From IMG/VR virus record IMGVR_UViG_3300021420_000109, positions 1-26,786 of that record: a stretch of DNA of 26,786 bases; one strand, written 5' to 3'. A model generated the notes under the pieces. The model did no database searches. It saw only the letters and a program-made list of their open reading frames with translations, and was not told where the DNA came from. The stretch's first letter is position 1; the number at the start of each line of letters is the position of its first letter. This stretch comes from a virus. The translations under genes and the position numbers were made by a program. This document shows, in pieces, positions 5,359 to 25,853 of this stretch.

Positions 5359-6606
5359 TTAAATCTTACCAGCGACAACGCACAACCATTCGGGCTTAAT
5401 ATACTTAAACCCAAATAAAACATCAATACGTGTTGCCAATTGATCGGAATTAGTTAGATAATCAGTTAAAATACGAATACTAATTCCATCATAATTTGCT
5501 CGCGCTGCTTCTTCAACTGCCTTCTTTGGCATGACCAAATCAGCAGTAGCGAGTGTAACAGCCTTTTGCACATAAGCAATAGACTTGCGGTAAACAGAAC
5601 TTGCAGGCGTCACCAATGTCATCGCTGCGCCATTAATAGGCGAAGCATCAACAGTCTGATATTGAACATCGGGACCACCAACTAAGCCAGTCGCGCTAGG
5701 AATCAAACCAGGATAAATTGGAATAACGGTCGCACCAGAAATAACAGGAGCAGTGATAACAAACTGTGCAAGTGACCCGTTACTTTGCTTAGTAACCCTA
5801 TTGACTGAGTTAACATTCGCAAAAGTAACAATATCACCTTGATTTAATGTACCAGTAGTAGGATTAACAGTAATATTACCACCAGTAAATGGAGTAGTTT
5901 GACCGCCACCATTTACAGTACCACCAGCACTAAATGTACCAGTAGTGTGTTTAATAGCAGTTTGATCCCTAAACCAGCGACCGTATCCTAAACCAGATTT
6001 CATCGAACCGCTGCGAAACTGAGCCGAGATTTCCTGCGAAGGATTAAGTAATCCAGCAAGAGCCGAAACGGCACGAGCATCGGCAAACGGATCGAGAACA
6101 ATACGCCTATCCATAGTATCGGCACTAAAAGTATCTAATACTGCATTGCCAGCAAGAAAAGTATCCATTGTCGGATCGATAATATTACCGCCGCCATCAA
6201 CATTACTAACCAAATTGCAAACACCACCTTCTGAACCTAACATAACCGCTGCTGCAACCTTACCAGCAAGGTTATTGATCATAGGTGCCATAACAATTTC
6301 TGAATAATCATCAATTGCCATAGTACGTTCTGCGGTAGTAAATGGAACGTCAACACCACGTTGATCGGAAACAGTTAAAGTAGTAAACTGTTCATTAGTA
6401 GCCTGTAATTGCAATGCAGGACCTTGCCTAACAACATAATCGTTAGGTAATCTGATACGCAAAGTTGAACCGATCTTTGCACCATCAACGGCAAAAGAAC
6501 CGTCATATTGCGTATCCATATTCATAATAAAAAGATTAGAGTTTTTAAACAATCGCACCGCTTCTGCGGTGATCATGTCGATAGTTAATAAACTATTACC
6601 GGCCAT
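5359..6606 (-). CDS. Major capsid protein, P22 coat family
   Basis: A 415-residue protein. The N-terminus (NSLLTIDMITAEAVRLFKNS, then a MDTQYDGSFAVDGAKIG turn and LRIRLPNDYVVRQG) and the C-terminus (ARANYDGISIRILTDYLTNS, then DQLATRIDVLFGFKYIKPEW) follow the P22 coat protein pattern, including the conserved 'R-D-L-G---I-PE' ending. Middle residues about 220-330 are Gly/Thr/Val-rich beta sequence (TVNGGGQTTPFTGGN), where P22 coat carries its inserted domain. Length is near P22 coat (430). It is isolated between terminators, as expected for the most abundant virion protein. There is no strong ribosome site, only AAGAAAG about ten bases before ATG. Confidence 0.9.
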   Translation of the reverse strand: MAGNSLLTIDMITAEAVRLFKNSNLFIMNMDTQYDGSFAVDGAKIGSTLRIRLPNDYVVRQGPALQLQATNEQFTTLTVSDQRGVDVPFTTAERTMAIDDYSEIVMAPMINNLAGKVAAAVMLGSEGGVCNLVSNVDGGGNIIDPTMDTFLAGNAVLDTFSADTMDRRIVLDPFADARAVSALAGLLNPSQEISAQFRSGSMKSGLGYGRWFRDQTAIKHTTGTFSAGGTVNGGGQTTPFTGGNITVNPTTGTLNQGDIVTFANVNSVNRVTKQSNGSLAQFVITAPVISGATVIPIYPGLIPSATGLVGGPDVQYQTVDASPINGAAMTLVTPASSVYRKSIAYVQKAVTLATADLVMPKKAVEEAARANYDGISIRILTDYLTNSDQLATRIDVLFGFKYIKPEWLCVVAGKI

Positions 6607-6834: not shown

Positions 6835-7008
6835 CTACGGTCCAACAATAACTTGTTCGCGTCCTGTTGCTTTTGCTAACAATTCTACTAATAACCATCT
6901 TTCTTCTTCATTTAAAACTATTAATATTCGATGTTTCGTATCTTTTGGTGCACTAAATACTTTATGTAGCATCGATTCACCATGCATTTTAATTTCTTCA
7001 TTCGTCAT
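6835..7008 (-). CDS. Small hypothetical protein (57 aa) after scaffold
   Basis: Starts with an ATG that shares one base with the scaffold stop (TAATG) and ends in TAG at 6837-6835, just before the terminator. The 57-residue product (start MTNEEIKMHGESMLHKVF, end KATGREQVIVGP) has a strong amphipathic middle, ILIVLNEEERWLLVELLAKA, that should fold as a helix. No family recognised. The coupling and terminator support a real gene, possibly an assembly cofactor. A longer frame over 6716-6898 in another register is a shadow. Confidence 0.6.
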   Translation of the reverse strand: MTNEEIKMHGESMLHKVFSAPKDTKHRILIVLNEEERWLLVELLAKATGREQVIVGP

Positions 7009-7895
7009 TATCTATATCCTGCTGCTTTCATCTTTTGTCTTTCAGCAATTTGAATATTTCGCTTTCTAATAAATTCATTCATATTTTGAGTATCTTTATC
7101 AGTAATAACCATATCGTTATTTGTACCTGATGTTTTACCTCCAATAGGTTCGATAGGCTTAGGAACTTTAGAAACTGCTTTAGATGCAGGTTTCGCCGCA
7201 AGTTTAACTGATAATTTGGTCAATTCAACAGCCGCCTTTGCAGGAGATAAAGTTATAATACGTTCGTATTCATCAACATCATCAGCTAATGAAACTAACA
7301 CTGCACCACCATTATCAAGATCATCTAAAATTCCGATCATATGACCTGGAATAGGTGCTGTTTCTTCAGCAATAACTTTAATTTTCTTTATGAAATCTTT
7401 ATCAAGCTTTTCCGCAGCATCAGCAAGTCGATTGCTTGCATTTAAAAATTCACGTTCTGCAACTTTTTGCTCTGCTTTAGCGTTAGCTCGCTTATCAACT
7501 TCATCCTCATCAAACTTACCTTCCTTACCTTCTTTAGCAGCAGCAAGTTGACGTTTTGTTTCTGCAAGTTCTTCTTCAAGCGTCTTTCGCTTGGCAACCT
7601 CTTTATCAATCTTTCGTTGAATGCGTGACTTTTCAACTTGTGTTTTAGCTTCTTGCTTTTCAGTTTCTAATTCTTCTTCAGTCTTTTCACTAGCTGTTAT
7701 TTCTTCTTTAGTTTCTTCAGTTTTAGTTTCTTCAGTTTTAGTTTCTACAACAATTTCTTCTTTAGTTTCCTTTTTTGTTTCATCTTCTTTCTTTTCAATA
7801 ACATTACCATCATCATCCTTTGTTGCTAAACCAGTCATATTAACCATTTTACGTGCTGCTTCCAAAGAAGCAATTTCTTCAGGTGTTTTACTCAT
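7008..7895 (-). CDS. Capsid scaffolding protein
   Basis: A 295-residue protein located two genes before the coat gene. Residues about 30-80 are a low-complexity Glu/Lys/Thr tract; about 85-150 is a charged coiled-coil (RIQRKIDKEVAKRKTLEEEL, then AETKRQLAAAKE); the C-terminus is basic and helical (NEFIRKRNIQIAERQKMKAA). This acidic coiled-coil body with a basic C-terminal helix is typical of phage scaffolds, which co-assemble with coat through the C-terminal helix and leave the procapsid afterwards. P22 scaffold has a similar length (303). The start at 7895 has a good AAGAGG tract and overlaps the previous stop (ATGA). Confidence 0.75.
   Translation of the reverse strand: MSKTPEEIASLEAARKMVNMTGLATKDDDGNVIEKKEDETKKETKEEIVVETKTEETKTEETKEEITASEKTEEELETEKQEAKTQVEKSRIQRKIDKEVAKRKTLEEELAETKRQLAAAKEGKEGKFDEDEVDKRANAKAEQKVAEREFLNASNRLADAAEKLDKDFIKKIKVIAEETAPIPGHMIGILDDLDNGGAVLVSLADDVDEYERIITLSPAKAAVELTKLSVKLAAKPASKAVSKVPKPIEPIGGKTSGTNNDMVITDKDTQNMNEFIRKRNIQIAERQKMKAAGYR
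7711..7740. repeat. Two 15-bp direct repeats inside the scaffold gene
   Basis: The 15-base unit gtttcttcagtttta occurs twice head to tail (7711-7725 and 7726-7740) and begins again at 7741. On the coding strand it gives a tandem Lys-Thr-Glu-Glu-Thr repeat in the acidic tract. Being in phase with the codons, copy changes would lengthen or shorten the tract without a frameshift. Confidence 0.8.
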
Positions 7896-10151: not shown

Positions 10152-10381
10152 TTTTCTTCCAATATATAATTAATCATAGCTTTATATGCATCACTAGCAT
10201 CTTCACTACAAATACTAGCATATAAATGACCAGCATCGATCATATCTTTTGTTGGTTCGCGTATTGCTTCGATAACTACTTTAGCAAGAATTTGTAAACG
10301 ATACTCTTTTGATGTTGGAATTAAAGCAATATTTTGCTCAGCTTTTTGTAAAGCTTCAATAGCTTTTTCAATCATTGTCAT
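10148..10381 (-). CDS. Small conserved phage protein (77 aa)
   Basis: Start ATG 10381 overlaps the stop of the large polyvalent gene (ATGA); a second ATG two codons on is also possible. The segment VVIEAIREPTKDMIDAGHLY followed by DASDAYKAMINYILEEK resembles the 'AI-AIREPT--MI-AG ... W-AMI' pattern of small phage proteins of unknown function. It is helical and acidic at the end. Confidence 0.5.
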   Translation of the reverse strand: MTMIEKAIEALQKAEQNIALIPTSKEYRLQILAKVVIEAIREPTKDMIDAGHLYASICSEDASDAYKAMINYILEEK

Positions 10382-13300
10382 TTTGTTTTAGCCGCTTCAC
10401 TACGAGATAAATTAGGATTTGGTGAACCTTTAATAGGTTCAATAGGTGTATTACTTACATCATGTGGATTATGATCTATAGGTATAAACATCCCTGGATA
10501 GGACGAACTAAATAATGGAAATCCCTTTTGCATAGCTTGATCTTTTAAACCTTGGGGAATATCGATATAAGGAACTGGTGTTTTTTCTTTATGAGAATTA
10601 ATTATGTTTTCAGCTTCTTCTTTAGAATATAATTTACTATTTTCTAAATACTTATCGTTATCTCTATCATAGATTAAATATTTATTTCTTGTAGTAGATT
10701 TTCTTAATTCATATTGAACGATAGGTTGAATACGGCCTAAATCACCTTGCTTCACCTTAACCCCATATTCCTTACCTATCTTTTCCAATGCTTTAGGTAT
10801 AATTTGATCATAAAAACCTTTCATACCTTCGCCGCCGACTTTAAGATCAAGACCTTCTAATTTATGAATATTACCGTATTTGCCGGTAAGAGGTTCTTTT
10901 AATAATTTATCACTAGTTTCTTTTCCGATATAATTGGGTAACTTTTCAGGTTCTACAACTTCATTCATAATTTGATTATTATTTTTATCAAAAGCATGTA
11001 ACGTTTTCATTTCTTTATTATATTCAACTTTATTTAAATGCTTACTTAAATCATATCGTTCCGCTTGTGCTTCTCCTGGGGTCCAACTTAATCTGTCATA
11101 TCCTTTTTCTGCCGCTTCCCTAATCATTCGCTTTAATACTAATTCATGCCAAGTTTTCTTAAATGGTGCATCGGGAACATCAGATGAATTTTGTATACTT
11201 TTTGCCCAACGATTTTGAAGATCAACAGAACCTTTATTAAATGCAATATCTGCTACAGAAACTCTATTTAAAGGTTTATCTATTCCAAGATTTCTTATTT
11301 CTTTACCTTCAGGAGTTTTTTCTAAATCTTGTTTAAACCCTTCTTTCCTTCCCTTCTGTAACCAATCACTTTGTATCTCTTCTAAATGTAATGATTTCTT
11401 TCCTTCAATATCTCTATCATTCATTCGAACATGAGCGAGGATATTAGGTTCATCAAAATGAGTTGATTGAAAATTGCCCGGCGCTTTACCAATTAAATTA
11501 GTTTCATCGGCTGCTCGAATCCATTCTTCTTGCTTAGCTTTTGTTAACCCTTCCCATTCAGGATCACCACCACGTTTAACCCAATTATCATAAAATTGTT
11601 TTGCAAATGCTTCAGGATCGAGTGTTTTAACAGGCAACGTTAATAGCTTCTCTCGATAATTTTCACCACCGGGTAATTGATATTGAGAAAATTTAGTATT
11701 ATCTCCTATACTTTGTTGATAAATATTTCCCATTCCCGAGGTATTTTGTCTTATACTATAAGTTTCTCTTTCTTTATATAATTCCCTATATCTTGCTTCA
11801 TCTTCTTGAGATGATGTGTGATCTAAAATTTTCTTTTGTAATTGTTGATATTCATCTTCATTTTGAAACTTACCTTTATTAACCTCTTTTAATTCAACTT
11901 TATTTGCATTTACATAATCTTGTATCTCTTGCTTAGTAAGCGTATTACCTTTATTCTCATTCAAATAATCTTTTAATCCAATCCAATCCATTTCTTCAGG
12001 TTTAACACCTTTGCTATTCTGAATAGTCGATAACCATTGCTCGGCTGGCGCTTTAGCCTGTTTAATATTATTAACTGCATTCTCAACTGCTGAATAAAAT
12101 GTAGGTGCAACCTTTGACAAAGCTTGCTCTGCTTGACTAGCCTCACTCGTATCCGATTTCAATAAACCAGATTGACCAAACTTATTAGGATCAAATTGAG
12201 CAAATCTTGATCGCACAGTACCAGGATCAAATGAAATATGAACAGTAGCACCTTTTCTAATTTGATTATCTCCATATTCCTCAGTTACATTTTTAATTGT
12301 TACACCTTTCTTACCTGCTTCTAACGCCTCTTGAATTGCTTTATGATTGACATTATCCCAATATTGACCTTTTGCATCATAAACATGATAATTACTAGTA
12401 TCTAACTTTAACGGTAATATTTGTGATCCAGGCGTATAATTACCTTTTAATTGTTGTCCTGTAAAGCCATGCGCTAAATCAACATCAGGAGTTGAATAAA
12501 ATTCTTTAGTATTTAATTTATCACCTTCAAATCCTACTGTCCCATGATAAGCATCTGTCGTATAAGGATTAGTAATTTTAGCTAATGATTGTTCCGCTTG
12601 CGATGCTTCTTGCGTATCACTCCTAAACATTGCTAACTTACTCTTTAATTGTCCGCTATCACTTACACCATATTGCTGATCTAATGTATCTCGCGATACA
12701 AACTTACCTTTATTATCAAGAAATCCAAACTTTTTAAAGTCAGGATTTTCACTTGATAAATCATCCATAAACTTTTGCTTAACAGCAGGATCGGCAATGT
12801 TATTTATAATATCCGAATGATCTAAATTTTCACCTACCTTACCAGCATAAATTTTACGTGTTTCAGGATCACGTATTGCAGGACGCATACCTTCTAGTTC
12901 GCGTTGCTTATTTAATATTTTACTAAAAGCACTTTGCGCTTGACTTGCTTCTGAGGTATCAGATTTTAATCCTAACCATTTTCCGTCATCACTCAAATAT
13001 TGTATTTTATCAGCGGGAACTTCTTTATTTGAATAAATATCACCTGTACTTTCTTGTTTAAAAGGATGATCGTTTTTATTTATTCTTAATAAAACCGATT
13101 GACCTTCTTCAGGTGCAAACTGCCATGTATTTTGTGCAGTAGAAGTAAAATAATTACGTTTAGCAGTAGAACCATCTGGCCAAGTTGCCTGATCAGTAAA
13201 ATCACCGGGTTTAAATAAACTTAATTTGCCACTTTCAGCAATATCATTAGCGCGTTCTACATTTGTAGCATGATAAACATAATTAGGATCACCTTCAACA

Positions 13301-13863
13301 GCTTTTTTAACCTCTGCAAATTTACGCATTGGTCCTGCACCTAACACTGCACCACCTTCACTTGTGCCCACAAATCCACCCGTTCCACCTAATCCCGCAG
13401 CTAACAATGCTTTAGGATAATTAGCAGGGTCTTGTGTCACATCTTTACCAGCCAATGCTTGTTCTGTCAAATCCTTTGCTGCTTTAATTGGTTCATAAAT
13501 TAAATTCTTTCCCAATAGAAATGGTGCAGCAGCACCAAAGATAGCTACTTTTCCTAATGGTGAACTTTCATCGTAGACTTGCGATAACGATTTAATCGTA
13601 CTCGGCTGATGCGTCATGCTTTGTTGATCCGACTTAAACGGATCATAATCAACCGGAACTAGGTTGTATTTAGGTTGTTCAACTGTAGATTGATTTACAG
13701 CATTAAATCGTTCGTTAAAATTTGTAGGTTGATCTTGAAAGTTGTTTGTTACATAATTCTGTAGATTATTAAATGCTTGCGATTGCTCAACTGGCAACCT
13801 TTGATCCTGATTATCATCAGAATTATCAAAATTGTATAATCTATTGCTGTCCTGCTGGGGCAT
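10378..13863 (-). CDS. Large polyvalent phage protein with two ADP-ribosyltransferase-like domains
   Basis: A 1161-residue protein after the portal. Visible parts: disordered N-terminus (1-95); Gly/Ala hydrophobic segments (103-120, 151-178) that could touch membranes; an ART-like domain (193-298) with YHAT at 197-200, RNYFTST at 236-242 and a Glu at 281 before VPADKI, a plausible H-Y-E set; a domain with GFLDNKGKFVSRDT (380-393); a second ART-like domain (431-563) with YHGT, FYST and VRSRFAQFDP; and a large C-terminal region (590-1115) with HLEEIQSDW, PFKKTWHELVLKRMI and LKVGGEGMKGFYDQI, segments shared by large phage proteins of unknown function. Three SDTSEASQAEQ-like linkers separate the domains. 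It is probably packaged and ejected to act on host proteins, which is inference. AGAGG precedes the ATG. Confidence 0.7.
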   Translation of the reverse strand: MPQQDSNRLYNFDNSDDNQDQRLPVEQSQAFNNLQNYVTNNFQDQPTNFNERFNAVNQSTVEQPKYNLVPVDYDPFKSDQQSMTHQPSTIKSLSQVYDESSPLGKVAIFGAAAPFLLGKNLIYEPIKAAKDLTEQALAGKDVTQDPANYPKALLAAGLGGTGGFVGTSEGGAVLGAGPMRKFAEVKKAVEGDPNYVYHATNVERANDIAESGKLSLFKPGDFTDQATWPDGSTAKRNYFTSTAQNTWQFAPEEGQSVLLRINKNDHPFKQESTGDIYSNKEVPADKIQYLSDDGKWLGLKSDTSEASQAQSAFSKILNKQRELEGMRPAIRDPETRKIYAGKVGENLDHSDIINNIADPAVKQKFMDDLSSENPDFKKFGFLDNKGKFVSRDTLDQQYGVSDSGQLKSKLAMFRSDTQEASQAEQSLAKITNPYTTDAYHGTVGFEGDKLNTKEFYSTPDVDLAHGFTGQQLKGNYTPGSQILPLKLDTSNYHVYDAKGQYWDNVNHKAIQEALEAGKKGVTIKNVTEEYGDNQIRKGATVHISFDPGTVRSRFAQFDPNKFGQSGLLKSDTSEASQAEQALSKVAPTFYSAVENAVNNIKQAKAPAEQWLSTIQNSKGVKPEEMDWIGLKDYLNENKGNTLTKQEIQDYVNANKVELKEVNKGKFQNEDEYQQLQKKILDHTSSQEDEARYRELYKERETYSIRQNTSGMGNIYQQSIGDNTKFSQYQLPGGENYREKLLTLPVKTLDPEAFAKQFYDNWVKRGGDPEWEGLTKAKQEEWIRAADETNLIGKAPGNFQSTHFDEPNILAHVRMNDRDIEGKKSLHLEEIQSDWLQKGRKEGFKQDLEKTPEGKEIRNLGIDKPLNRVSVADIAFNKGSVDLQNRWAKSIQNSSDVPDAPFKKTWHELVLKRMIREAAEKGYDRLSWTPGEAQAERYDLSKHLNKVEYNKEMKTLHAFDKNNNQIMNEVVEPEKLPNYIGKETSDKLLKEPLTGKYGNIHKLEGLDLKVGGEGMKGFYDQIIPKALEKIGKEYGVKVKQGDLGRIQPIVQYELRKSTTRNKYLIYDRDNDKYLENSKLYSKEEAENIINSHKEKTPVPYIDIPQGLKDQAMQKGFPLFSSSYPGMFIPIDHNPHDVSNTPIEPIKGSPNPNLSRSEAAKTK
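12124..12159 (-). repeat. Third copy of SDTSEASQAEQ linker (protein residues 569-580)
   Basis: Reads KSDTSEASQAEQ and is followed by ALSK. It sits between the second ART-like domain and the large C-terminal region. Codons for the shared residues differ from those of the other copies (for example Ser-Glu-Ala as agt-gag-gct here). Confidence 0.8.
12589..12624 (-). repeat. Second copy of SDTSEASQAEQ linker (protein residues 414-425)
   Basis: Reads RSDTQEASQAEQ and is followed by SLAK, directly before the second ART-like domain. Shared residues use partly different synonymous codons (Ser as tcg here, agt in copies one and three). Confidence 0.8.
12931..12966 (-). repeat. First copy of SDTSEASQAEQ linker (protein residues 300-311)
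   Basis: Reads KSDTSEASQAQS and is followed by AFSK. It marks the end of the first ART-like domain. Downstream of each copy a short helix with a conserved Lys about five residues later is retained. Confidence 0.8.
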
Positions 13864-16159
13864 TTGCCTCTACTCGCATAAATTGCCCATTAGGATGCTG
13901 TACGTAGTGGTTCCCGTCTGGCGCTAGCCGACTGCCCGGCACATCGGGAAGGCTATCCTGATCATTCCTAGGCTCTTGGCGAGGCATTGTAAACGTTTCG
14001 TCGGGTTCGCCAGCCCTTATCATACCTTTCAATAGCTGTTCCACGATTGGTTTAATAGTTTCAGGACTAATTGCAGGACCACTATTACCCAATGCAACAA
14101 GCCGTTTAGTTTCGGCTTCGTAATCCAATCTAGCTTGCTGTGCAGTTTCTTTCTTTAATTCCAAATCAAGTTGTTGTGCTTTAATTGCTAATTCTTTATC
14201 CTTATCTGCTAATTCTTTAGTCTGCTTAGCAATAACCGCAAGCTGTTGTTGAATTTGATCAGAAGCTTTGTGCATCGCTTCAGTAATAGCCGGATTTGGA
14301 GCATCACCTGTAATATTTGGAGGAATAATTTTGCGCCAGCGATCCGCTAATAACTGAGCTTCTGGGAAATCCGCAACCTTCCAAAGTAAGTCGCCAGCAA
14401 TTCCCATAAATTCTTTATTCTGCGCTGCAATCTGAGTAAGAGCAGAAAACGCCTCTTGTCGTCTCGTTGCAAATGAAGGACCAGTATCAGCCATAATATC
14501 ATATTGACCAAAACCAGGATTAAATATAATTTCCTCAATTGGTCTGCCTTTATCTTTTTGCATATTATTAGGATCGGTTACATTTTGCATTGCATATTGT
14601 GCATCAGGATCAATCATAACTTGCAACATACGACCATCACTTGTTTCAATCCTCTTAATCCGTTTTGTATCATAAATTTTAGGAATAAGATAAATTAAAT
14701 CTTTTCCAGTTCTCCTAATAGCGATAGCTTGATTATCAATAAAATGATAAGTAGCCCGATCACCTTGTCGTTGTCTTGCATTAATAGCAACGCCGGATTT
14801 AGCATTTTCATTTTCACCTAACTGTGCTTGATATTGACCGGACGCCATCATCATTTCATCTTGCGCAATCTTTAATCCTTCAACATAAGCGGGTGAAGGT
14901 TGTGGAGGATTAGGACGCTTAGGTTCTGGTAATGGGTTTCCATCTTCATCGAACGCATTCCAAGGCATGTAAGAATGATTTTTACTATTCGCAGTTTTAT
15001 AGTATTCTTCAAAGTTTTGAATAGCTTGTGTAGCAGCAAGCCACGGTGCTTTAGTTTGTAAAGCACCAAATTCAACATTAGCACTAGTATTATAATTATA
15101 TATTTGTTGAGGATTAATTAACGCTCGTGTATGACCTTTACAATCCCATTCACCATCAATAACAGTTTCGCTACCCCATACCGGAATAATAGGAATTGTA
15201 TTACCTAACCATTCACCACGATCAATAATTATATCACCAGCAATCTTAAACCATTCAATATTATCAGTAAAAACCTTTCGCTCTTGATAAGTTCTTAAAT
15301 CTCTTGATAATTGCTTTTCACGACTTTTAATTTCTTTATATAACTCTTTCTGTTGATCGGTTAATTCACTTAATAAACTTTCAATTTGTTCTTTATTTTC
15401 AGGATCAAAAAAAGATACATATTTATCTTCATCTCTTGTTTTACGAAAATATTCAACTTCGCGAATATTATTTTGCGTCAACCACATGTCGGTTGATGTA
15501 TTACCTAAAGGTGCAAAACCCACTTTATCTTTAAATTTAGGATTTTTAGCTTTCCATATATCTTTAGCTACATCTTCAAAAACAAATCCCCATTCCGCGT
15601 CACTACCATCAATTTCATTACGATTAGGATCAAGATAAACAGAACGAGGGTCTTTAATCTTTTTGATATATATTTCTTGATCGAATGTTTTACTATCTAT
15701 ATAATCAACATGCAATCTCCAATAACCCCATCCGGCTTCAACTTGAAATTTAGAAGCATAATCATAAACATTTTCAGCATTTGAAATATATTCAATATGA
15801 TAAACAATCTCTTGAAAGATTTGAGCACCTTCAAAAGTCGCTTCATCATTAACCGGGCGAATACGAATACCCGGCTTATTCTGCTTCATATCATTGAGAA
15901 TTTGAAGATTATGCTGATTTGTTTTATTAATTGTGAGACAAGGGCGATCCATTAATTCTCGATTAGTAAGAATTTCCTTGTCCCATTGATACTTATTGTG
16001 GGTATCTCCATTTGCAAACTTATAATCATAATCAAATCGAATACGTGCGACAGCTTCCCATTGCTCTGCTTTTTTAAAACGTTCCTTAGCTTCTTTAATA
16101 ATATCTGCATCGGGATCACCCGTACTTTCTTCCCAAGTAGTACCCCATGCAGTTGTCAT
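13841..16159 (-). CDS. Portal protein, P22 gp1-like
   Basis: A 772-residue protein between the HNH gene and the large polyvalent gene. The N-terminal third carries family features: YDYKFANGDTHNKYQWDKEI, then RPCLTINKTNQHNLQILNDM and KPGIRIRPVNDEATFEGAQI, then an EYISNAENVYDYASKFQVEA helix and KDPRSVYLDPNRNEIDGSDA. Residues about 650-690 form a Lys/Glu/Gln-rich coiled-coil (the C-terminal barrel region), and the end is Pro/Asp-rich. P22 gp1 is 725 residues. Portals form the dodecameric ring at one capsid vertex through which DNA is pumped. The start overlaps the HNH stop (ATGA). Confidence 0.85.
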   Translation of the reverse strand: MTTAWGTTWEESTGDPDADIIKEAKERFKKAEQWEAVARIRFDYDYKFANGDTHNKYQWDKEILTNRELMDRPCLTINKTNQHNLQILNDMKQNKPGIRIRPVNDEATFEGAQIFQEIVYHIEYISNAENVYDYASKFQVEAGWGYWRLHVDYIDSKTFDQEIYIKKIKDPRSVYLDPNRNEIDGSDAEWGFVFEDVAKDIWKAKNPKFKDKVGFAPLGNTSTDMWLTQNNIREVEYFRKTRDEDKYVSFFDPENKEQIESLLSELTDQQKELYKEIKSREKQLSRDLRTYQERKVFTDNIEWFKIAGDIIIDRGEWLGNTIPIIPVWGSETVIDGEWDCKGHTRALINPQQIYNYNTSANVEFGALQTKAPWLAATQAIQNFEEYYKTANSKNHSYMPWNAFDEDGNPLPEPKRPNPPQPSPAYVEGLKIAQDEMMMASGQYQAQLGENENAKSGVAINARQRQGDRATYHFIDNQAIAIRRTGKDLIYLIPKIYDTKRIKRIETSDGRMLQVMIDPDAQYAMQNVTDPNNMQKDKGRPIEEIIFNPGFGQYDIMADTGPSFATRRQEAFSALTQIAAQNKEFMGIAGDLLWKVADFPEAQLLADRWRKIIPPNITGDAPNPAITEAMHKASDQIQQQLAVIAKQTKELADKDKELAIKAQQLDLELKKETAQQARLDYEAETKRLVALGNSGPAISPETIKPIVEQLLKGMIRAGEPDETFTMPRQEPRNDQDSLPDVPGSRLAPDGNHYVQHPNGQFMRVEANAPAGQQ

Positions 16160-17804: not shown

Positions 17805-19307
17805 TCAATTTTGCACCAATTTATCACTAAATTGTGATTGCCATACTTGAATTTTTTTTACGCTCATTGCCCAATTACCCATACCAGTCCCGACATTACA
17901 AGCTGTAGGCGTAAATGAAGCTGTGCAGCCACTTGAAATAATCAAAATGAATCCATTGCTACCATCTGCTTCTGTAAATGCTCCATCATAAGGGGATGCT
18001 GTACATGTTGCCTGCTTGCCGCTTCCTTTGGCGAAATAGGTGCAATTATTGGCATTGGTTGCGATCATCAGCGATGATGCGACTTGACCGCGGTTAAAAC
18101 TTAAAGCATATACACCAACCTTACCCGTAGTGCCGCTAGTTTGCGATGCAACAGTTGTTGCTGCCGTAGTTCCGTTATTATTCCCGATATAGCTTCCGAC
18201 GGCGATAGAACCAGCAGATAGCATTTGCGTGACATGCAGCGTCACGCCATCACTATCGATTGAGCCGGTGAAAACCGCATTACCGGGGCAGGTATCTGCA
18301 TCAACTAAATAGCCATAAAATCCCGTTCCGTTGTTTTTTGATGGAGGCACCCATAATTGATCGAAGGTATGAAAAGTATTGCCGTCTAAAACCGGATTGC
18401 ATTCTGTCGAACGCAGCGGCGGCGTACCAAAATAATCAGAGAAGATCGAGCCGCCAGAACACGAAACACCGCAAAGATTGTCATGCAAAAAATTATTTAG
18501 CAGTACATTACCATTATTACTAAAACAATCACAATTGTCGGTCTCGATGAAATTCGAACCAGGTATCGTTCCGGGCCATGAAGTTAACCACCACGCAGGC
18601 CATCGCCAAGGTGATCCCGCAATTCCGTTCGGCGCCTTGGTTTCATCGAATGAAACATATGCGCGCGCGTAAAGGCCATTTTTGAAACTAATACCCCGAT
18701 AAGTTTCCGGTACTCCTGAAGGAACATTTAAAGAAGTCCATGTACTGATACCATAATTACTATCGCCCTGTGAAACATTAGTTAGTGTCAACCCGGTAAC
18801 TGGATCAACCGATAAAGTGTTGGTAGCTTGAATGATCGAAGCCATGAACTCGCAACTAGCGAGTGTTTGCGCCGGACTAACCGTATATGTCCCCGTTCCA
18901 CCGGAACCTGCCGTGATAGTCGTCCCTATTGACGGAGCGCACCCTCCGGCTCCGACACCAGGACTCAATGTCATTCCAACTTTAAGTACCGCAGAAGACA
19001 CAGCCGTTACTGTCATCGTGCCAGTGTTGGCAATTGACGCAGTTAAATCTACACGAGTTAAACCTTGAGTACGCCAATTAAATCCAGCGGCATTAGTAGC
19101 GCCAAGATCGATCGTCGCAAGCGACGTCATCGGATCAAAAAATGTGCACGTATTAAATCCAAAAGCACCAGCAGTACTCGGAACGGCGTCAGGACAACCT
19201 TGTGAAGAACTAGTTGAAAAAACTTGAAATATAGCAAATCCTGCCATCGCTAATTTAGCGATCAATAGAATACCAATAATTGATAATGCAATTAGAGAAC
19301 GACGCAT
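17805..19307 (-). CDS. Exported GH16/concanavalin-A-like protein with two inserted beta repeats
   Basis: A 500-residue protein with a signal peptide or anchor (RRSLIALSIIGILLIAKLAM, end near MAG). A lectin/glucanase-like scaffold is visible: GLYARAYVSFDETKAPNG (211-228), WRWPAWWLTSWPG (234-246), FIETDNCDCF (253-262) and FHTFDQLWVPP (312-322), the order of strands seen in family-16 glycosidases, where E-x-D-x-x-E carries catalysis. Here the third acidic residue is Asp. Residues 91-158 and 346-416 hold two copies of a G-T/V-T-T-V-VG repeat common in phage fibre proteins. At least ten Cys fit an oxidising compartment. It may bind or cut a surface polysaccharide. Confidence 0.55.
   Translation of the reverse strand: MRRSLIALSIIGILLIAKLAMAGFAIFQVFSTSSSQGCPDAVPSTAGAFGFNTCTFFDPMTSLATIDLGATNAAGFNWRTQGLTRVDLTASIANTGTMTVTAVSSAVLKVGMTLSPGVGAGGCAPSIGTTITAGSGGTGTYTVSPAQTLASCEFMASIIQATNTLSVDPVTGLTLTNVSQGDSNYGISTWTSLNVPSGVPETYRGISFKNGLYARAYVSFDETKAPNGIAGSPWRWPAWWLTSWPGTIPGSNFIETDNCDCFSNNGNVLLNNFLHDNLCGVSCSGGSIFSDYFGTPPLRSTECNPVLDGNTFHTFDQLWVPPSKNNGTGFYGYLVDADTCPGNAVFTGSIDSDGVTLHVTQMLSAGSIAVGSYIGNNNGTTAATTVASQTSGTTGKVGVYALSFNRGQVASSLMIATNANNCTYFAKGSGKQATCTASPYDGAFTEADGSNGFILIISSGCTASFTPTACNVGTGMGNWAMSVKKIQVWQSQFSDKLVQN
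18060..18272 (-). repeat. Beta-repeat copy 2 in the lectin-like protein (residues 346-416)
   Basis: Reads through FTGSIDSDGVTLHVTQMLSA, GSIAVGSYI, TTVASQTSGTTGKVGVYALS to QVASSLMIA. Same order as copy 1: strand, '-TAVSS--L-VG', TT-x-TVAS, GT-G-Y, Q--AS. It interrupts the lectin scaffold after GYLVDADTCPG. Confidence 0.55.
18834..19037 (-). repeat. Beta-repeat copy 1 in the lectin-like protein (residues 91-158)
   Basis: Reads SIANTGTMTVTAVSSAVLKV, GMTLSPGVGAGGCAP, TTITAGSGGTGTYTVSPAQT, LASCEFMAS. Modules of this type (VTAVSSG-L-VGQ-L-G ... GTGGTGTYTV--SQTVAS) are frequent in phage fibre and environmental surface proteins. The two Cys in this copy have no counterpart in copy 2. Confidence 0.65.
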
Positions 19308-19317
19308 TAATCACCTA

Positions 19318-20229
19318 TTAGCTAGTTGGGCAAGAACCATGAACTGTCATAAAATAAGTACAAAGACGACCTTCAAGGTTTGTAACATCAGTAGATGATA
19401 AACTGCCTCCGATAGTGATTGCACCAAGCTGTAAAATACTCCCGAAATTCACCGTTGATCCGGCAACACGCTGAGCAAGGATAGCAACGTTACCATTGAG
19501 AACGGCGGCAGATGCTTCTGTGCTATCACCGACATCGGATGCATTCTTGTAATGTTGAACTGCACCGGCACTAGAACGATTAACCACATAATGACCAATA
19601 CTATCAGCATTCAATATCCCTGTAGCGTTTGTTGCGGAATTAGCATCACCGTAAAAGTTGCCATCATTATATTTCGGAAACAGTCTCGTGGAATTAGTTG
19701 CCGCCAATACAAGACCCATAACCGTACCGCCCGATGCACCGCTTGTAGCATTTGTGAAACTCCATGCCGATACGTGCGAAGAATTCTGCGTGAAATGCGG
19801 TGAAGTTGCAGTTGAAGGATTGAAACCAGTATCGATATAGATCGTTGTGCTGGCATCGACACCGCTCCATCCATTATTTGCGGAAAAACAGGCAGTAGCC
19901 CCAGCGCAACCCGTTGAAACATTGCCGTTTGCAGTTCCATTAAAAGTGCCAGGATTGACAGCATTGACGAGAGAATTTGCACTGGAATTGATGGCAAAAA
20001 TATAAAGCACATCAAGCTTGGCAAACACACCATCGGTCACGAGCCCGCAGATCAGTGTCGTAACCGCCGCGGAGTTTTGACCGCTGTCGAGCATACCGTT
20101 ATACGTAGTCGCTTGAGAGCATCCGCCACCTCCTGTCGAAGCCGAAACAAGCGGCAGCCAGCCAGCAGCGCGAACAGCGACAGCAGCAAGTACAAAGAAG
20201 ACACCAATGACGGCGGCGAGCCGTTTCAT
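19318..20229 (-). CDS. Exported beta-rich protein (303 aa), probable surface or fibre protein
   Basis: A 303-residue protein with a clear signal peptide (KRLAAVIGVFFVLAAVAV, cleavage near RAAG). The body has CSQATTYNGMLDSGQNSAAV, LICGLVTDGVFAKLDVLYIF, WSGVDASTTIYIDTGFNPST, HVSAWSF and LFPKYNDGNFYGDAN, ending SLSSTDVTNLEGRLCTYFMT. This type of protein (jelly-roll/LamG-like sequence with paired Cys) occurs in phages and prophages next to fibre genes; function unknown. The start overlaps the previous stop (ATGA), and the gene is about 50% GC, unlike the head genes. Confidence 0.55.
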   Translation of the reverse strand: MKRLAAVIGVFFVLAAVAVRAAGWLPLVSASTGGGGCSQATTYNGMLDSGQNSAAVTTLICGLVTDGVFAKLDVLYIFAINSSANSLVNAVNPGTFNGTANGNVSTGCAGATACFSANNGWSGVDASTTIYIDTGFNPSTATSPHFTQNSSHVSAWSFTNATSGASGGTVMGLVLAATNSTRLFPKYNDGNFYGDANSATNATGILNADSIGHYVVNRSSAGAVQHYKNASDVGDSTEASAAVLNGNVAILAQRVAGSTVNFGSILQLGAITIGGSLSSTDVTNLEGRLCTYFMTVHGSCPTS

Positions 20230-20486
20230 GGCTTCTTTTCCTCCCCGGCATTTTCCTTCGTTTTCTCGGCCGCATCGCGCTCGGCCTTCAACGCCTCGGG
20301 TAGCTTGACCTTCGCAAGATCACAAAAGTCCTGGAACCTCATGCGAAAGCCGTAAAGAGCCGCTTCACAGAGCAGCGGAATGATCGTCGCTTGATCGGCA
20401 AGCGTCAGCGGAATGTTGACCGTGGACTGCTGAGCGCCGGCACAAGATGGCGTAAGCAGAGTCAGAATGACTAAAATTCTTCGCAT
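20226..20486 (-). CDS. Small exported hypothetical protein (86 aa)
   Basis: Starts MRRILVILTLLTPSCAGAQQ, a short signal peptide with probable cleavage after AGA; the SCA is not a good lipobox. The mature part holds IPLTLADQATIIPLLCEAAL, two further Cys and a charged helical end rich in Ala, Lys and Glu. No family recognised. It is GC-rich, starts eight bases after the previous stop behind a GAGGTAAGG tract, and is coupled to the next gene. Confidence 0.5.
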   Translation of the reverse strand: MRRILVILTLLTPSCAGAQQSTVNIPLTLADQATIIPLLCEAALYGFRMRFQDFCDLAKVKLPEALKAERDAAEKTKENAGEEKKP

Positions 20487-20494
20487 ACCTTACC

Positions 20495-20839
20495 TCAATT
20501 CGGCGCGATCGGCACATAGGGCACGGCGTTCTGTAGAACCTGCAATTGAAACGCGTTGACTTGCCCCACGAACGTATCCCGCAAAGTTCCGGCCCAATAA
20601 TTGAGAACTTGCGCAGTCGTGCACGTTCCGTTGATGCTGGTATTGCAGCCGGATTGGAAGACCTGCACGATATTGGTTTGCAACGTGTTAGGCTTAGCCG
20701 TTCCCGCATCAGTGAAAGTCCGCGAACAGCCTGCCATACAAAGACCAGCAGGCGTTGTAAGCGTGATCGTGATCGTGTCAGCAGCGGCCGGCAGGGAAAG
20801 GCAGGCGAGTAACGAAGCGAGCAAGAGTTGTTTCTTCAT
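20495..20839 (-). CDS. Small exported hypothetical protein (114 aa), Cys-rich
   Basis: Start chosen at ATG 20839 (MKKQLLLASLLACLSLPAAA), a classical signal peptide, four bases after the fibre-like gene's stop; longer frames upstream overlap that gene. The mature part begins DTITITLTTPAG and holds four Cys (GLCMAGCSR; SGCNTSINGTC), then a helical end FVGQVNAFQLQVLQNAVPYV. Disulfide-bonded periplasmic or secreted protein is the natural reading. No family recognised. Confidence 0.55.
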   Translation of the reverse strand: MKKQLLLASLLACLSLPAAADTITITLTTPAGLCMAGCSRTFTDAGTAKPNTLQTNIVQVFQSGCNTSINGTCTTAQVLNYWAGTLRDTFVGQVNAFQLQVLQNAVPYVPIAPN

Positions 20840-20843
20840 GTGA

Positions 20844-22310
20844 TCAGTCCGTTTTCCATGAGGTTCCATCACAGTAGACCGAGGCGTGCGTGGTTCCGCC
20901 ACTAGCATAGGCGGTTAGAAACGTTGGCGTCAAAGCATCAGACACCGCAGCACGCGAACCTTCTGCGGCACCATTACAAGTCGGAAGCGGAGTACCGGCG
21001 GCGCTGAATACAACGTTATTTTGAATCACGCCAGTATTCTTAACTGTGAATACTGCTGCAAGAGCATTTTGAGACGTTCCAGTTGTCCCAGCTTTTGCTG
21101 TTTGAAAGATAATATCGCCACCTGCGCCGGTGCCAGTTCCTTGAGAACCATTAAAAGTCCAATTGACGCCTGCCGTGTTGCTGGTGCCAGCTACCACATT
21201 TTGAACTTGAAGCGTTTGAGCAACCGGAGCACCAGCATCAGCCTGTCCTAATTGCCACGCATTATTCGATGGTATTGTTATATACGTACTAGTCGAACCA
21301 GTCCAATTTTGCAATAACAAAGTTCCATTAGCAGAAGCACTAATATTGAATCTACTTTGAATTGATAATGATCCAGTTGTTCCAACTGTTAGATTTCCAC
21401 TTGAAATAATACTGCCGGAATTCACAACTCCAGAAAACGTATGCTGATTAGTTGTACCTATTCCATAATCATATCTAAGCGTTCCAGAAATAGCTAGACC
21501 TAATTTTGAAGCAGCCGTAACATACCATCCCGTATTATTTTCAAAATTATTCATCGCAAGAGACGGAGCCGCCACCGAGCCGGCTCCATTCACTGCAATC
21601 GAATCGGCACCAAGCGCCCAAGCTTTAGTAAGCGTGACATTGGTTCCAGCTACTGGAACCTTAATATATGCCCCATAATAATTCGTGAACGTCGTCGCAT
21701 TCGATGCGGCAACGGTATTGCCACCGAAAATATCTGTATAAGCATTCGCAACTGTACCGCTTGATGTGGTATCTGTCATCGTCGCCGTAACGTTCGCGTA
21801 ACGAATGCCAGCCGTTGTCCACGCTGCTGCGGAGATATTACCGCTCAAGCCGAAACTGCCACCTGCGACAGTGGTCTTTCCATTAAGCGTAGCCGTCCCG
21901 GATGTACACAGCACATCCGAACCTATGGTGCAGCCATCGATCGCAACCGAGGTCGCAGTCGCAACACCGAGAACAGGTGTAATCAGCGTCGGCGAGGTCT
22001 GCATCACCGCGACCGTGCCGGTGCCGGTCAGCGTATATTCTCCAAGCACTCCCGCATTGTCATAGAGAATGCGCGTCGTCGTCCCGCTCGTGATCGTGCT
22101 GGTTCCAACAGTGAGCCCACCGCCACTGCCACATGCGCCGGAGCCCACAGTACCGCTACTGATCGTGAGGCATTGGCCGTTTGACCCGCCCGTAACAGGC
22201 GTCGTATTGACGACAATCGTTGTCTGCGCCGAAGCCGTTATAGTCTGCGGGTAGGCAGGCGACAACGCGAAAAGTAGGCCAAAAAGAACACCAGCCAAGG
22301 TTCGTCGCAT
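20844..22310 (-). CDS. Tail-fibre-like protein with signal peptide (488 aa)
   Basis: Start chosen at ATG 22310, sharing one base with the previous stop (TGATG), followed by a signal peptide RRTLAGVLFGLLFALSPAYP. The body is Gly/Thr/Ser/Val-rich: SNGQCLTISSGTVGSGACGS, then TSTITSGTTTRILYDNAGVL and GEYTLTGTGTVAVMQTSPTL, a module well known from phage fibre proteins; later FTNYYGAYIKVPVAG and NNTGWYVTAASKLG; the end TPTFLTAYASGGTTHASVYC resembles fibre C-termini. The combination of fibre modules with a secretion signal is unusual. Composition changes within the gene (GC-rich first third, AT-rich middle). Confidence 0.6.
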   Translation of the reverse strand: MRRTLAGVLFGLLFALSPAYPQTITASAQTTIVVNTTPVTGGSNGQCLTISSGTVGSGACGSGGGLTVGTSTITSGTTTRILYDNAGVLGEYTLTGTGTVAVMQTSPTLITPVLGVATATSVAIDGCTIGSDVLCTSGTATLNGKTTVAGGSFGLSGNISAAAWTTAGIRYANVTATMTDTTSSGTVANAYTDIFGGNTVAASNATTFTNYYGAYIKVPVAGTNVTLTKAWALGADSIAVNGAGSVAAPSLAMNNFENNTGWYVTAASKLGLAISGTLRYDYGIGTTNQHTFSGVVNSGSIISSGNLTVGTTGSLSIQSRFNISASANGTLLLQNWTGSTSTYITIPSNNAWQLGQADAGAPVAQTLQVQNVVAGTSNTAGVNWTFNGSQGTGTGAGGDIIFQTAKAGTTGTSQNALAAVFTVKNTGVIQNNVVFSAAGTPLPTCNGAAEGSRAAVSDALTPTFLTAYASGGTTHASVYCDGTSWKTD

Positions 22311-23377
22311 CACATCACCATGCCATGAATAAAGCCCGTAGTCGCAAGCGTCAACGTCGCGCAAGTCGTGGAAGAAATTGCCGCAGTAATCCCTACCGAA
22401 TAAACAGCAGGCGGTCCGCCAGCATAATTAACCGATCCAAAACCGCCGGCTGAAATCGGAATACATTCGACCATATTGCCAGATGCAACACCTGCCGTAG
22501 TTGATCCATTACTCGGTGCAGAGGTCGAATTGAACACCATCAACCAGCAAGCCGCCGAACATTCAGCGTAGACACTATAAAGATTGCCGGCCGCATTTTT
22601 AAGAACAAGTGATGACGCTGCCGAACCACCAACGACCGGTGTTATGCCAACCAATGCCGAAGATGACGGAGCGGGACCAACAAATGGAACGGCGTTCGCC
22701 GCAGCAGCAGGACCAAGCGTGATAATGCCTGGACTATCCGGCCGGAGATCGACCACAAGCGCCGTATTAGTTGCCGTAACCGGAGCAGTGTTTACTGCAA
22801 CTTGACCTGTCGTAGTTGCAGTACCACCAAAAGCTGCAACATTAACTGGAATATTGGATTGATTGCTAGCAACCACAACTGGCGACGAATTTCCCATCGT
22901 CGCTTGACCATTAGCATTAGCATTCGCAACATTAACACGAACGTTTCCATTCGTGTCACAAGACAATGGATCAGTTTGCGCCGTTACATATGTCGGTGAT
23001 CCTGTCGTAACTGCACATTGAACAAGAAGACCTGTTTGACCTGATGTAGTTGAAGCTTGTGCAGCAGCAGTTGGTTGATTAGCTGATATAGCAAGTGCGG
23101 ATGTATTTAAATTAGTACCAGCATTAGCTGTAATAGTACCAGAAACAGGTTGTGTAACTGCCGAATTATCAACTTTAACTGCACCACCAGCACTTACAGC
23201 AGCACATTGATTAGCTGTAGTAGCATCACAAAATAATGATGAAACGAAATGAACACCACCAATTACAATAGAACCAAAATTAGTACCCATACCTTGTGTA
23301 GCAGCATAGTTACCTAATGCTATACCACCACAAACACTTATTAAAATTGCAGCAGTAGATAACCATTTTCTTAACAT
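22310..23377 (-). CDS. Tail-fibre-like protein with hydrophobic leader (355 aa)
   Basis: Start chosen at ATG 23377 (MLRKWLSTAAILISVCGGIA), two bases after the previous stop. Residues 1-25 are a signal peptide or anchor. The middle has GNSSPVVVASNQSNIPVNVA and repeated TGQ-V/TNTA phrases, a module common in phage fibres. The C-terminal third, KNAAGNLYSVYAECSAACWL then MVFNSTSAPSNGS and SVGITAAISSTTCATLTLAT, resembles fibre or receptor-binding tips. The first 140 residues are AT-rich, the rest GC-rich, suggesting a recombination joint around 22.95 kb. Confidence 0.6.
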   Translation of the reverse strand: MLRKWLSTAAILISVCGGIALGNYAATQGMGTNFGSIVIGGVHFVSSLFCDATTANQCAAVSAGGAVKVDNSAVTQPVSGTITANAGTNLNTSALAISANQPTAAAQASTTSGQTGLLVQCAVTTGSPTYVTAQTDPLSCDTNGNVRVNVANANANGQATMGNSSPVVVASNQSNIPVNVAAFGGTATTTGQVAVNTAPVTATNTALVVDLRPDSPGIITLGPAAAANAVPFVGPAPSSSALVGITPVVGGSAASSLVLKNAAGNLYSVYAECSAACWLMVFNSTSAPSNGSTTAGVASGNMVECIPISAGGFGSVNYAGGPPAVYSVGITAAISSTTCATLTLATTGFIHGMVM

Positions 23378-23379
23378 AA

Positions 23380-23562
23380 TTATAATCCGCCTAATGCCAT
23401 TGGTTGAACACATCCTGTTGAAAAATCAATAACACCAGCACAAGCACCACTAACAGCAGGATTACCCGAACTACCTACCCAAAAAAACAATATATTTCCT
23501 GCTTTCGCAGTTAACGAAAGTAAAATTATAATAAGCGTTACAAATAATAATTGCTTAATCAT
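23380..23562 (-). CDS. Short exported protein (60 aa)
   Basis: Starts MIKQLLFVTLIIILLSLTAK, a strong signal peptide with likely cleavage after AKA, leaving a mature peptide of about 40 residues: GNILFFWVGSSG, then ACAGVIDFSTGCVQPMALGG with two Cys. The start overlaps the previous stop (ATGA). No family recognised; small size and Cys pair suggest a secreted peptide or a periplasmic factor. Confidence 0.55.
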   Translation of the reverse strand: MIKQLLFVTLIIILLSLTAKAGNILFFWVGSSGNPAVSGACAGVIDFSTGCVQPMALGGL

Positions 23563-24026
23563 CGTTGCGGTTTATAATGTACATTAACAATATAAGTAGA
23601 TGCTGCAGGAGCATTAGTATCATTATCTGCAATTCCAGTAGTAACACACATTACTATTCCAAAACCATAAGCATCACCATTAATATTAGGTAATGCAAAT
23701 CCACCACCACTTGCCGAGGTACCAAACGGTATCATCATTCGATCTACAGGCGCAGGAGTTGTTTGCCCACAAGTAGCAGCTTGTAAACAAGTCGCGCTAG
23801 TTGCTGTTCCACAAGCATTATATAATTTGATAAAAGCTAAGGTGGTTCCATTATTATAAGCATCAACAAAATATAAAGCAGCAGGTTTATTAGAAATAAC
23901 AATAGCTGTAGTATTATTAGCAATTAAAGTAGATGTAACAGAAAGTTCACCATCCGCTTGAAAAAGCGGTGCTGCAAAAGATAAATTACTATATAATAAT
24001 AGTAATAATGCTAAAAAACGTTTCAT
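23559..24026 (-). CDS. Exported beta-rich phage protein (155 aa)
   Basis: Start chosen at ATG 24026 (MKRFLALLLLLYSNLSFAAP), a clear signal peptide ending at SFA; the longer frame from 24038 adds four residues inside the previous gene. The mature part, NNTTAIVISNKPAALYFVDA then NGTTLAFIKLYNACGTAT, continues VDRMMIPFGTSASGGGFALP and YGFGIVMCVTTGIADNDTNA, the pattern of a small beta-sandwich protein encoded beside phage fibres. Four Cys. Coupled on both sides (ATGA). Function unknown. Confidence 0.55.
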   Translation of the reverse strand: MKRFLALLLLLYSNLSFAAPLFQADGELSVTSTLIANNTTAIVISNKPAALYFVDAYNNGTTLAFIKLYNACGTATSATCLQAATCGQTTPAPVDRMMIPFGTSASGGGFALPNINGDAYGFGIVMCVTTGIADNDTNAPAASTYIVNVHYKPQR

Positions 24027-24487
24027 GTGCAACCCCAAACACCGTCTTTAGCTGACATGCAAGCTAATCTAACATGAGTAGCAAGAGTAATACTTGTACC
24101 AGCGTTAATAGTATCCTGCGAATTAGTGTTAGGATTATTCATAACCGATGGATAAATAGTTGCTGTGGTGCCAGTTGCATTATAAATATGTAAAACTGTT
24201 CCAGCAAATGCATATGGTAAATTAAATCCTGTATTTGCTGCTACCGTATCTAATTCATATAACCTAACACTACCAGGCAACGGTGTCGCTGTTGCTTGTG
24301 TAGTACCTGCACCAGTTAAATTATTGGCAAAAATATTATTAGTACCTTGTGCAATACCAAGTACCCATTGACTATCCATCAAACGAAAACCACCATTAGC
24401 AGGCGGTGGACGACCTGAAATAGCAGTAGCAACAACAACAGAACCAATTAATGCACCAATAGCCGCACCTAATAATAATTTCTTCAT
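24023..24487 (-). CDS. Membrane-anchored or exported small beta protein (154 aa)
   Basis: The N-terminus MKKLLLGAAIGALIGSVVVA is a signal anchor. After a Pro/Gly linker come GTNNIFANNLTGAGTTQATA, LYELDTVAANTGFNLPYAFA, GTVLHIYNATGTTATIYPS and a closing RLACMSAKDGVWGC. The 'GTTQA-A-PL ... N-G--LP-A--GT---IYN-TG-T--IYP' pattern is frequent in small phage proteins near fibres and may be a fibre-tip or chaperone-like domain. The start overlaps the stop of the TPR-like frame (ATGA). Confidence 0.55.
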   Translation of the reverse strand: MKKLLLGAAIGALIGSVVVATAISGRPPPANGGFRLMDSQWVLGIAQGTNNIFANNLTGAGTTQATATPLPGSVRLYELDTVAANTGFNLPYAFAGTVLHIYNATGTTATIYPSVMNNPNTNSQDTINAGTSITLATHVRLACMSAKDGVWGCT

Positions 24488-24807
24488 GGTATTTTCCTCT
24501 GAGATAAAACAAATCTAGTAAATGGGGCATCCGGTGCTAATTTATATAATGCCTTAAATTGTTCTTCGGCACCTTTATAATCATGCACATTCATCATATG
24601 ATTAATAAGTATTCGTCTTAAATTAATTGATTTAGGCTCTAATTTTTGTATTTGTAGTAAAGGGGTAATTAATAGGTTATCCAAATCGGCAACTTGAATA
24701 AAACCTTCTCTATATCTAAAATCAAAAGGAAATAGATTAATCGCTAATTGTAACTGATATAAATTTTGATTGTACATTCCTTGCGAATGAAAATATTCTG
24801 CTTCCAT
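24484..24807 (-). CDS. TPR-like segment, probable displaced C-terminus of the O-antigen polymerase
   Basis: The frame is open from 24936, but residues before about MEAEYFHSQG (ATG 24807) are a shifted reading of the polymerase's last membrane helix, so I report from 24807 (107 residues). The content, NQNLYQLQLAINLFPFDFRY then REGFIQVADLD and a second helical pair HDYKGAEEQFKALYKLAPDA, is that of TPR helices; 'A--LFPFD-RYRE' is the usual sequence after the membrane part of Wzy/ligase-type proteins. Its stop overlaps the next ATG (ATGA), which argues that this frame is translated. See the finding on the frame change. Confidence 0.5.
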   Translation of the reverse strand: MEAEYFHSQGMYNQNLYQLQLAINLFPFDFRYREGFIQVADLDNLLITPLLQIQKLEPKSINLRRILINHMMNVHDYKGAEEQFKALYKLAPDAPFTRFVLSQRKIP

Positions 24808-25750
24808 ATAAAAGCAAGCTGTTATCGGACCAATTACGCACGCATTCAATAATGCACAGCGCCATAATAAATAAGGTAGCTGGCATATGGCTTGGAAACC
24901 CAAACATAGCAATAATTCCAAAGGTCCATAAAACATATTTTATTCGACAATTAGAAAATAAAATAAAAGCAAAAGCACCAATAGGGATAATCCCAAAAAT
25001 ACCCAAATCATATAATAATTCTAAATAATCATTATGAATGTAAGTTACATTATAATTAAAATCAACAAATCCAGTATAATTTAAATAATCATTACGAAAA
25101 GATGAGATACCATTGCCTAACCAATGTAAATTACTAATTGCAAAAGACCATAATTCAATTCGATCTTGAAATGAATTTAAGTCAAATCGGAAATAAACTA
25201 TCACGCCACCAAGGAATAATAGAAGGGTAATTACCAAATATTGGTATATATTTAATTTCAATTTTTTGTAACAAATTATCCAAATCATACCCACAATAAG
25301 CAAAGCGAGCATCGAAGCCCTTTGCATCGGCAATAGCATTGCCGGTATCATTGGTAGCACATGAAGCCATTTGCGATATATGATGCATCCAACTATCACC
25401 AATGCTGTTGTTTCTGCGAGGATATTACCATTAACAAATAAACCAGCAGGACGCCAAGATAAACTAACAATCCAATATTGAATATCAGTATTTATATAAT
25501 CAGATGTAAAATTCAAATTCCAACGAAACCATTGACCTAAACAAATCAAACTATTAATAGCTATTCCATATGAAGCAAATACAAAAATCTTTTCTAAGTT
25601 AACTTTTCTCACAAACGGAAGAAATGTATATAAAATACACCATCTTAATGTCGTGGCCGGTGCTTCAATTCCAGGCCAATATGCAATCATTAAGAAGAAA
25701 GTTATTAAAGGCAACCATCCATTACGTTTAAACCAAGAAAATACGAACAT
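24737..25750 (-). CDS. O-antigen polymerase/ligase-like membrane protein (Wzy/WaaL type)
   Basis: From ATG 25750 (MFVFSWFKRNGWLPLITFFL) the product has 337 residues; ATG 25787 and GTG 25804 are alternatives, but would overlap the 30-residue gene more. About nine or ten hydrophobic helices are visible. Family marks: MQRASMLALLIVG, DRIELWSFAISNLHWLGNGI, HNDYLELLYDLGIFG (about residues 239-253) and FGFPSHMPATLFIMAL. These are the O-antigen ligase domain motifs of proteins that join or polymerise lipid-linked glycans at the periplasmic face. The last 33 residues, after IIECV, are unlike the family and probably follow a frame change. A phage polymerase can alter host O-antigen and block further infection. 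Confidence 0.65.
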   Translation of the reverse strand: MFVFSWFKRNGWLPLITFFLMIAYWPGIEAPATTLRWCILYTFLPFVRKVNLEKIFVFASYGIAINSLICLGQWFRWNLNFTSDYINTDIQYWIVSLSWRPAGLFVNGNILAETTALVIVGCIIYRKWLHVLPMIPAMLLPMQRASMLALLIVGMIWIICYKKLKLNIYQYLVITLLLFLGGVIVYFRFDLNSFQDRIELWSFAISNLHWLGNGISSFRNDYLNYTGFVDFNYNVTYIHNDYLELLYDLGIFGIIPIGAFAFILFSNCRIKYVLWTFGIIAMFGFPSHMPATLFIMALCIIECVRNWSDNSLLLYGSRIFSFARNVQSKFISVTISD

Positions 25751-25760
25751 ATTAAATTTG

Positions 25761-25853
25761 CTAATACAAAGGCCGCGATAATCCATAGTAACAAAGGATG
25801 ACACCGATCACACCTAGTATGACCGATATCATCCATATCGTGTCCTCAAACAT
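25761..25853 (-). CDS. Single-helix membrane miniprotein (30 aa)
   Basis: An ATG shares one base with the fibre-gene stop (TAATG at 25855-25851) and the frame ends in TAG at 25763-25761. The 30-residue product begins MFEDTIWMISVILGVIGVIL and ends CYYGLSRPLY: acidic start, one membrane helix, Arg near the end, so N-outside/C-inside or the reverse is possible. The ATG of the next gene follows ten bases after the stop. It fills a gap otherwise without coding. No family recognised. Confidence 0.45.
   Translation of the reverse strand: MFEDTIWMISVILGVIGVILCYYGLSRPLY

Follow-up and report, generated by a model that had tools for sequence, protein, structure and literature searches.

A conserved junction peptide between the modules of a polyvalent-type protein in P22-like phages

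The window, a virus record 26,786 bases long and analysed from end to end, carries P22-like terminase, portal, scaffold, coat and tail genes, all on the minus strand. The gene for a protein of 1161 residues sits between the P22-like portal gene and the scaffold and coat genes, with TerL upstream. The features of this region are as follows.

13841..16159, minus strand: P22-like portal protein (context)
10378..13863, minus strand: multi-module (polyvalent-type) protein, 1161 aa, directly downstream of the portal gene
13321..13863, minus strand: N-terminal region without a module, residues 1-181, containing a hydrophobic stretch rich in Gly
13636..13662, minus strand: LVPVDYDPF, residues 68-76
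12967..13320, minus strand: module M1, residues 182-299, homologue of the C-terminus of mycobacteriophage I3 gp88 and of a solo ORF in a relative (L084)
12931..12966, minus strand: junction peptide copy 1, KSDTSEASQAQS, residues 300-311
12631..12888, minus strand: module M2, residues 326-411, RPAIRDPETRKIY...GFLDNKGKFVSR, present in about 25 relatives
12589..12624, minus strand: junction peptide copy 2, RSDTQEASQAEQ, residues 414-425
12166..12576, minus strand: module M3, residues 430-566, YHGT..., ADP-ribosyltransferase-like by eye
12124..12159, minus strand: junction peptide copy 3, KSDTSEASQAEQ, residues 569-580
10720..12108, minus strand: module M4, residues 586-1048, FYSAVE..., with a predicted GNAT-like fold, shuffled widely in phage polyvalent proteins
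10462..10488, minus strand: FIPIDHNPH near the C-terminus, residues 1126-1134, corresponding to the L.PV..NPF tag at the end of many relatives
7008..7895, minus strand: scaffolding protein (context)
5359..6606, minus strand: P22-like coat protein (context)

Elsewhere in the window, about nine ORFs, most of them starting with signal-peptide-like stretches by eye, lie between TerL and an O-antigen ligase gene (17805-24487, minus strand), an arrangement unusual for a P22-like phage. The latter gene (24737-25804, minus strand) encodes an O-antigen ligase family protein (Wzy_C, PF04932, above the cut-off), which may possibly serve to change the host surface.

The 1161-residue protein contains at least four modules, of which M2 and M4 are also found in proteins of other architecture. 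It had no Pfam match at E<=1, and Pfam and NCBIfam gave no family. M1 and M3 look ADP-ribosyltransferase (ART)-like by eye; a fold search with the M1-M3 model (mean pLDDT 55) returned nothing usable. For M4, GNAT acetyltransferases filled nearly all top VIA-align rows (Z up to 9.9), while Foldseek gave no match below E 0.05 and the M4 sequence profile matched no solved chain. One relative carries an intein-like insertion within M4 at a conserved YQLPGGENYRE site (L095:5536-8775; LAGLIDADG_3 above the cut-off, Hint match weak).

This anatomy resembles that of the phage polyvalent proteins, which (Iyer et al. 2017, PMC5512222) likewise combine many domains beside portal and terminase genes, undergo extensive domain shuffling and are proposed to be packaged and injected. 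The known polyvalent domains include ART, GNAT, ParB and peptidase domains; the window protein has no Pfam match, its M4 gives GNAT folds in the VIA-align comparison, and relatives contain ART-PolyVal. Its gene position and these relatives suggest that it is packaged and ejected.

The motif [KR]SDT.EASQA occurs at residues 300, 414 and 569, as originally predicted. Gapless pair scores over 20 residues were 65, 65 and 57, far above those of shuffled sequences (maximum 43, mean 36.5, sd 3.8), and the lysine described after the motif is conserved (KI or KV). The proposed placement at domain borders also held: the mycobacteriophage and PHROG match to M1 stops at residue 296-299, M2 ends just before the joint, and the match to M4 starts at about residue 585-589 in most relatives. 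In AlphaFold models, copies 1 and 2 fall in helices lying outside the cores of the modules, and copy 3 forms a low-confidence coil with a short helix; the helical state comes from one low-depth model (mean pLDDT 55).

Searches for relatives revealed that the joint exists in a second form. In about 20 distinct, more distant proteins (each sequence counted once, since several loci overlap within one and the same contig), the same register holds a homologous joint that reads [LM]xADSSKPGxAIEAM. When M2 was used to set a gapless register, the two forms scored a mean of 19.4 against each other versus -0.3 for column shuffles (P ~0.0008), and each is far more alike internally (scores 46-63 and 49.6). 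The copies share one form in all six multi-copy proteins (6/6). The motif thus exists as two lineage dialects of a conserved inter-module junction peptide, each consistent within a protein, and its use by relatives in another spelling shows it to be genuine, conserved punctuation between modules.

The exact window-type motif was found in one other contig among 2.9 million, and this dialect is known from two closely related phages only. The relatives' version occurs at 17 viral loci, of which those identified all belong to this protein family, and at 18 genome loci, one of them (L146) in the protein family. A widespread phage motif can therefore be dismissed. A search of GenBank phages with the L005 protein turned up no isolate carrying the joint. 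In giant polyvalent proteins, comparable repeats were limited to isolated pairs such as MFQQ and FMPERPTE; four of these proteins (L015, L031, L024 and L051) have tandem N-terminal DPF-like peptides.

The joint is not tied to one kind of module. Besides following M2, it recurs behind unrelated modules in four relatives (L004, L005, L089 and L091): six residues after a Pfam ART-PolyVal domain in L091, where this domain occupies the same slot as in L092; after a module that is acetyltransferase-like by eye, with no Pfam match, in L005; and after uncharacterised modules in L004 and L089. Since the motif follows unrelated modules and M2 also occurs without it, we rejected the idea that it is part of a module fold. 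Copy number varies and tracks module number, with three copies in the window, two in its near-identical relative L002, one or two in other relatives and none in L007, which has no module. Where a module lies at the C-terminus, the joint is absent (L109, L112 and L104). The same motif occupies 3/3 joins in the window protein and 2/2 in that of L002; some joins in relatives have no peptide, namely ParB-like to M4 in L005, L088 and L091, and M2 to a second M2-like domain in L096 and L104.

The copies were predicted to be old and kept at the protein level, and this was borne out. Those of the window share 57-61% DNA identity over 18 codons, with pS of 0.45-0.98 against pN of 0.24-0.37 and TCN to AGY codon switches at conserved serines. 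L002 and four relatives with two family-type copies each show the same pattern. Across the set, DNA identity between copies within one protein is 52-70%; synonymous sites approach saturation while the protein is conserved, and pS far exceeds pN between most copies. Near-saturation at synonymous sites rules out recent duplication. In the relatives' dialect, the majority-residue frequency is 0.89 in the ADSSKPG core, which exceeds the 0.76 of the M2 fold and the 0.34 of the positions immediately downstream. The junction motif is conserved in protein rather than in DNA.

Comparison with L002 showed how the gene changes. The two phages are 99.8% identical in the coat protein, about 98% in the portal (215 residues compared) and 99% in the tail factor; the counterparts of the 1161-residue protein are only 72% identical. 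L002 lacks exactly M1 and copy 1. In the orthologous copies the differences are mostly synonymous, one copy being identical in protein and the other having one residue changed. Residues 665-721, 743-800, 942-1003 and 1043-1110, in or just after M4, are highly divergent from L002 and alternate with near-identical blocks, which suggests rapid exchange within the M4 domain. Change is concentrated in this gene, including within M4.

These data bear on the proposal that the motifs are recombination joints allowing domain exchange. Taken alone, this would make the peptides by-products of short shared DNA used for module insertion, with no role in the protein. The exact module-plus-linker indel in L002 fits such a history, as does the copy that follows the ART domain in L091 (the same contig as L128), which is 89% identical in DNA to the copies following M2 in other phages and 69% identical to the first copy of its own protein. 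In addition, window and L002 have zero nucleotide differences in codons 587-627, just past copy 3. A role of the linkers as units of domain exchange has some support from the indel and the L091 copy; however, most mosaic breakpoints between the two phages lie inside M4 and outside the linkers. The excess of pS over pN, between copies that have diverged so far in DNA and are still conserved as protein, further weakens recombination as the sole explanation, and we give it a slim chance. Ongoing shuffling of protein fragments between phages has likewise been described as domain mosaicism (PMC10684548); the available part of that text does not mention 'linker' and describes no conserved joint.

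A second suggestion was that each copy is a docking motif to which a partner (the portal, the scaffold, a chaperone or some other molecule) binds while the protein is loaded or ejected. High conservation regardless of the flanking module would be expected of such a motif, and the lineage dialects could mirror co-evolution with the partner. A loading signal, however, would not need to follow the number of modules or to be missing after terminal ones; a count of one copy per module, with none behind a terminal module, agrees better with a connector or a cleavage site. A better candidate for a loading signal is the retained C-terminal L.PV..NPF tag. The motif L.PV..[DN]PF lies near the N-terminus and/or in the last 10-15 residues in the window, L003-L008, L024, L090-L092 and L096, and it may be a terminal loading tag, because short relatives that lack M4 (L090, L092 and L096) still end in it. 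We consider docking at the junction copies unlikely.

The main rival is a processing site, at which a host or phage protease would cut the junctions during assembly or after ejection and free the modules, as in a polyprotein. One sequence at nearly every join, and consistently another in the sister lineage, is what would be expected if the site tracks protease specificity, and the absence after terminal modules also fits. Host cleavage of such proteins has precedent, because the P22 ejection protein gp7 is processed by the host protease OpdA (PMC8402733), and the window belongs to a podovirus with P22-like portal, coat and scaffold. We claim no homology with gp7, which is cut near its N-terminus and not at repeated joins. 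P1 DarA is also cut and incorporated into the head (PMC5512222). On the other hand, no S78 or ClpP family protease (PF04586, PF00574) was detected in 13 related virus records; these records may be incomplete, and a host protease or one of another family would not show in this search. The joins that lack the peptide also speak against processing, and the predicted helix would be unlike an extended cleavage site. Processing is thus possible and, in our judgement, somewhat doubtful.

Our preferred reading is a connector under selection, which moves as a cassette together with each cargo module; we assign this mechanism about an even chance. The peptide is found between modules, behind modules unrelated to one another but not behind terminal ones; it is gained or lost with the preceding module, and the partly helical prediction favours a connector. 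The unit of exchange would be a cargo module together with its junction peptide. As a capped, partly helical connector, the peptide would string unrelated cargo domains together, allowing the modules to fold independently and then to be packaged and ejected in line, and selection would retain one lineage-specific version at nearly all joins. Counting against a connector are the joins without the peptide and the single low-depth model behind the helical state. Such strict conservation of sequence is also more than a passive connector would require, and suggests that a partner recognises the peptide. More speculatively, the peptide could be a lineage-specific 'punctuation code' read by one dedicated factor, such as a protease or chaperone. 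Phages would then swap cargo freely and retain one shared signal for release or threading, with code and reader co-evolving into dialects; we regard this as a tentative idea.

Polyvalent phage proteins are already known, and the available parts of the literature yielded no account of a junction peptide repeated within them. The accessible text of Iyer et al. 2017 (PMC5512222) does not contain the word 'linker' and shows no such peptide; compared with that account, a conserved peptide recurring at joins is a feature of this family. We conclude that a family of P22-like phage cargo (polyvalent-type) proteins has a conserved junction peptide between its modules; the anatomy and the selection are shown, and the mechanism is inferred. 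Polyvalent proteins of phages are considered to be single chains that deliver a series of effectors. The junction peptide provides a sequence handle for module borders, including those of the uncharacterised domains M2 and M4, and makes cutting of polyvalent chains after delivery directly testable.
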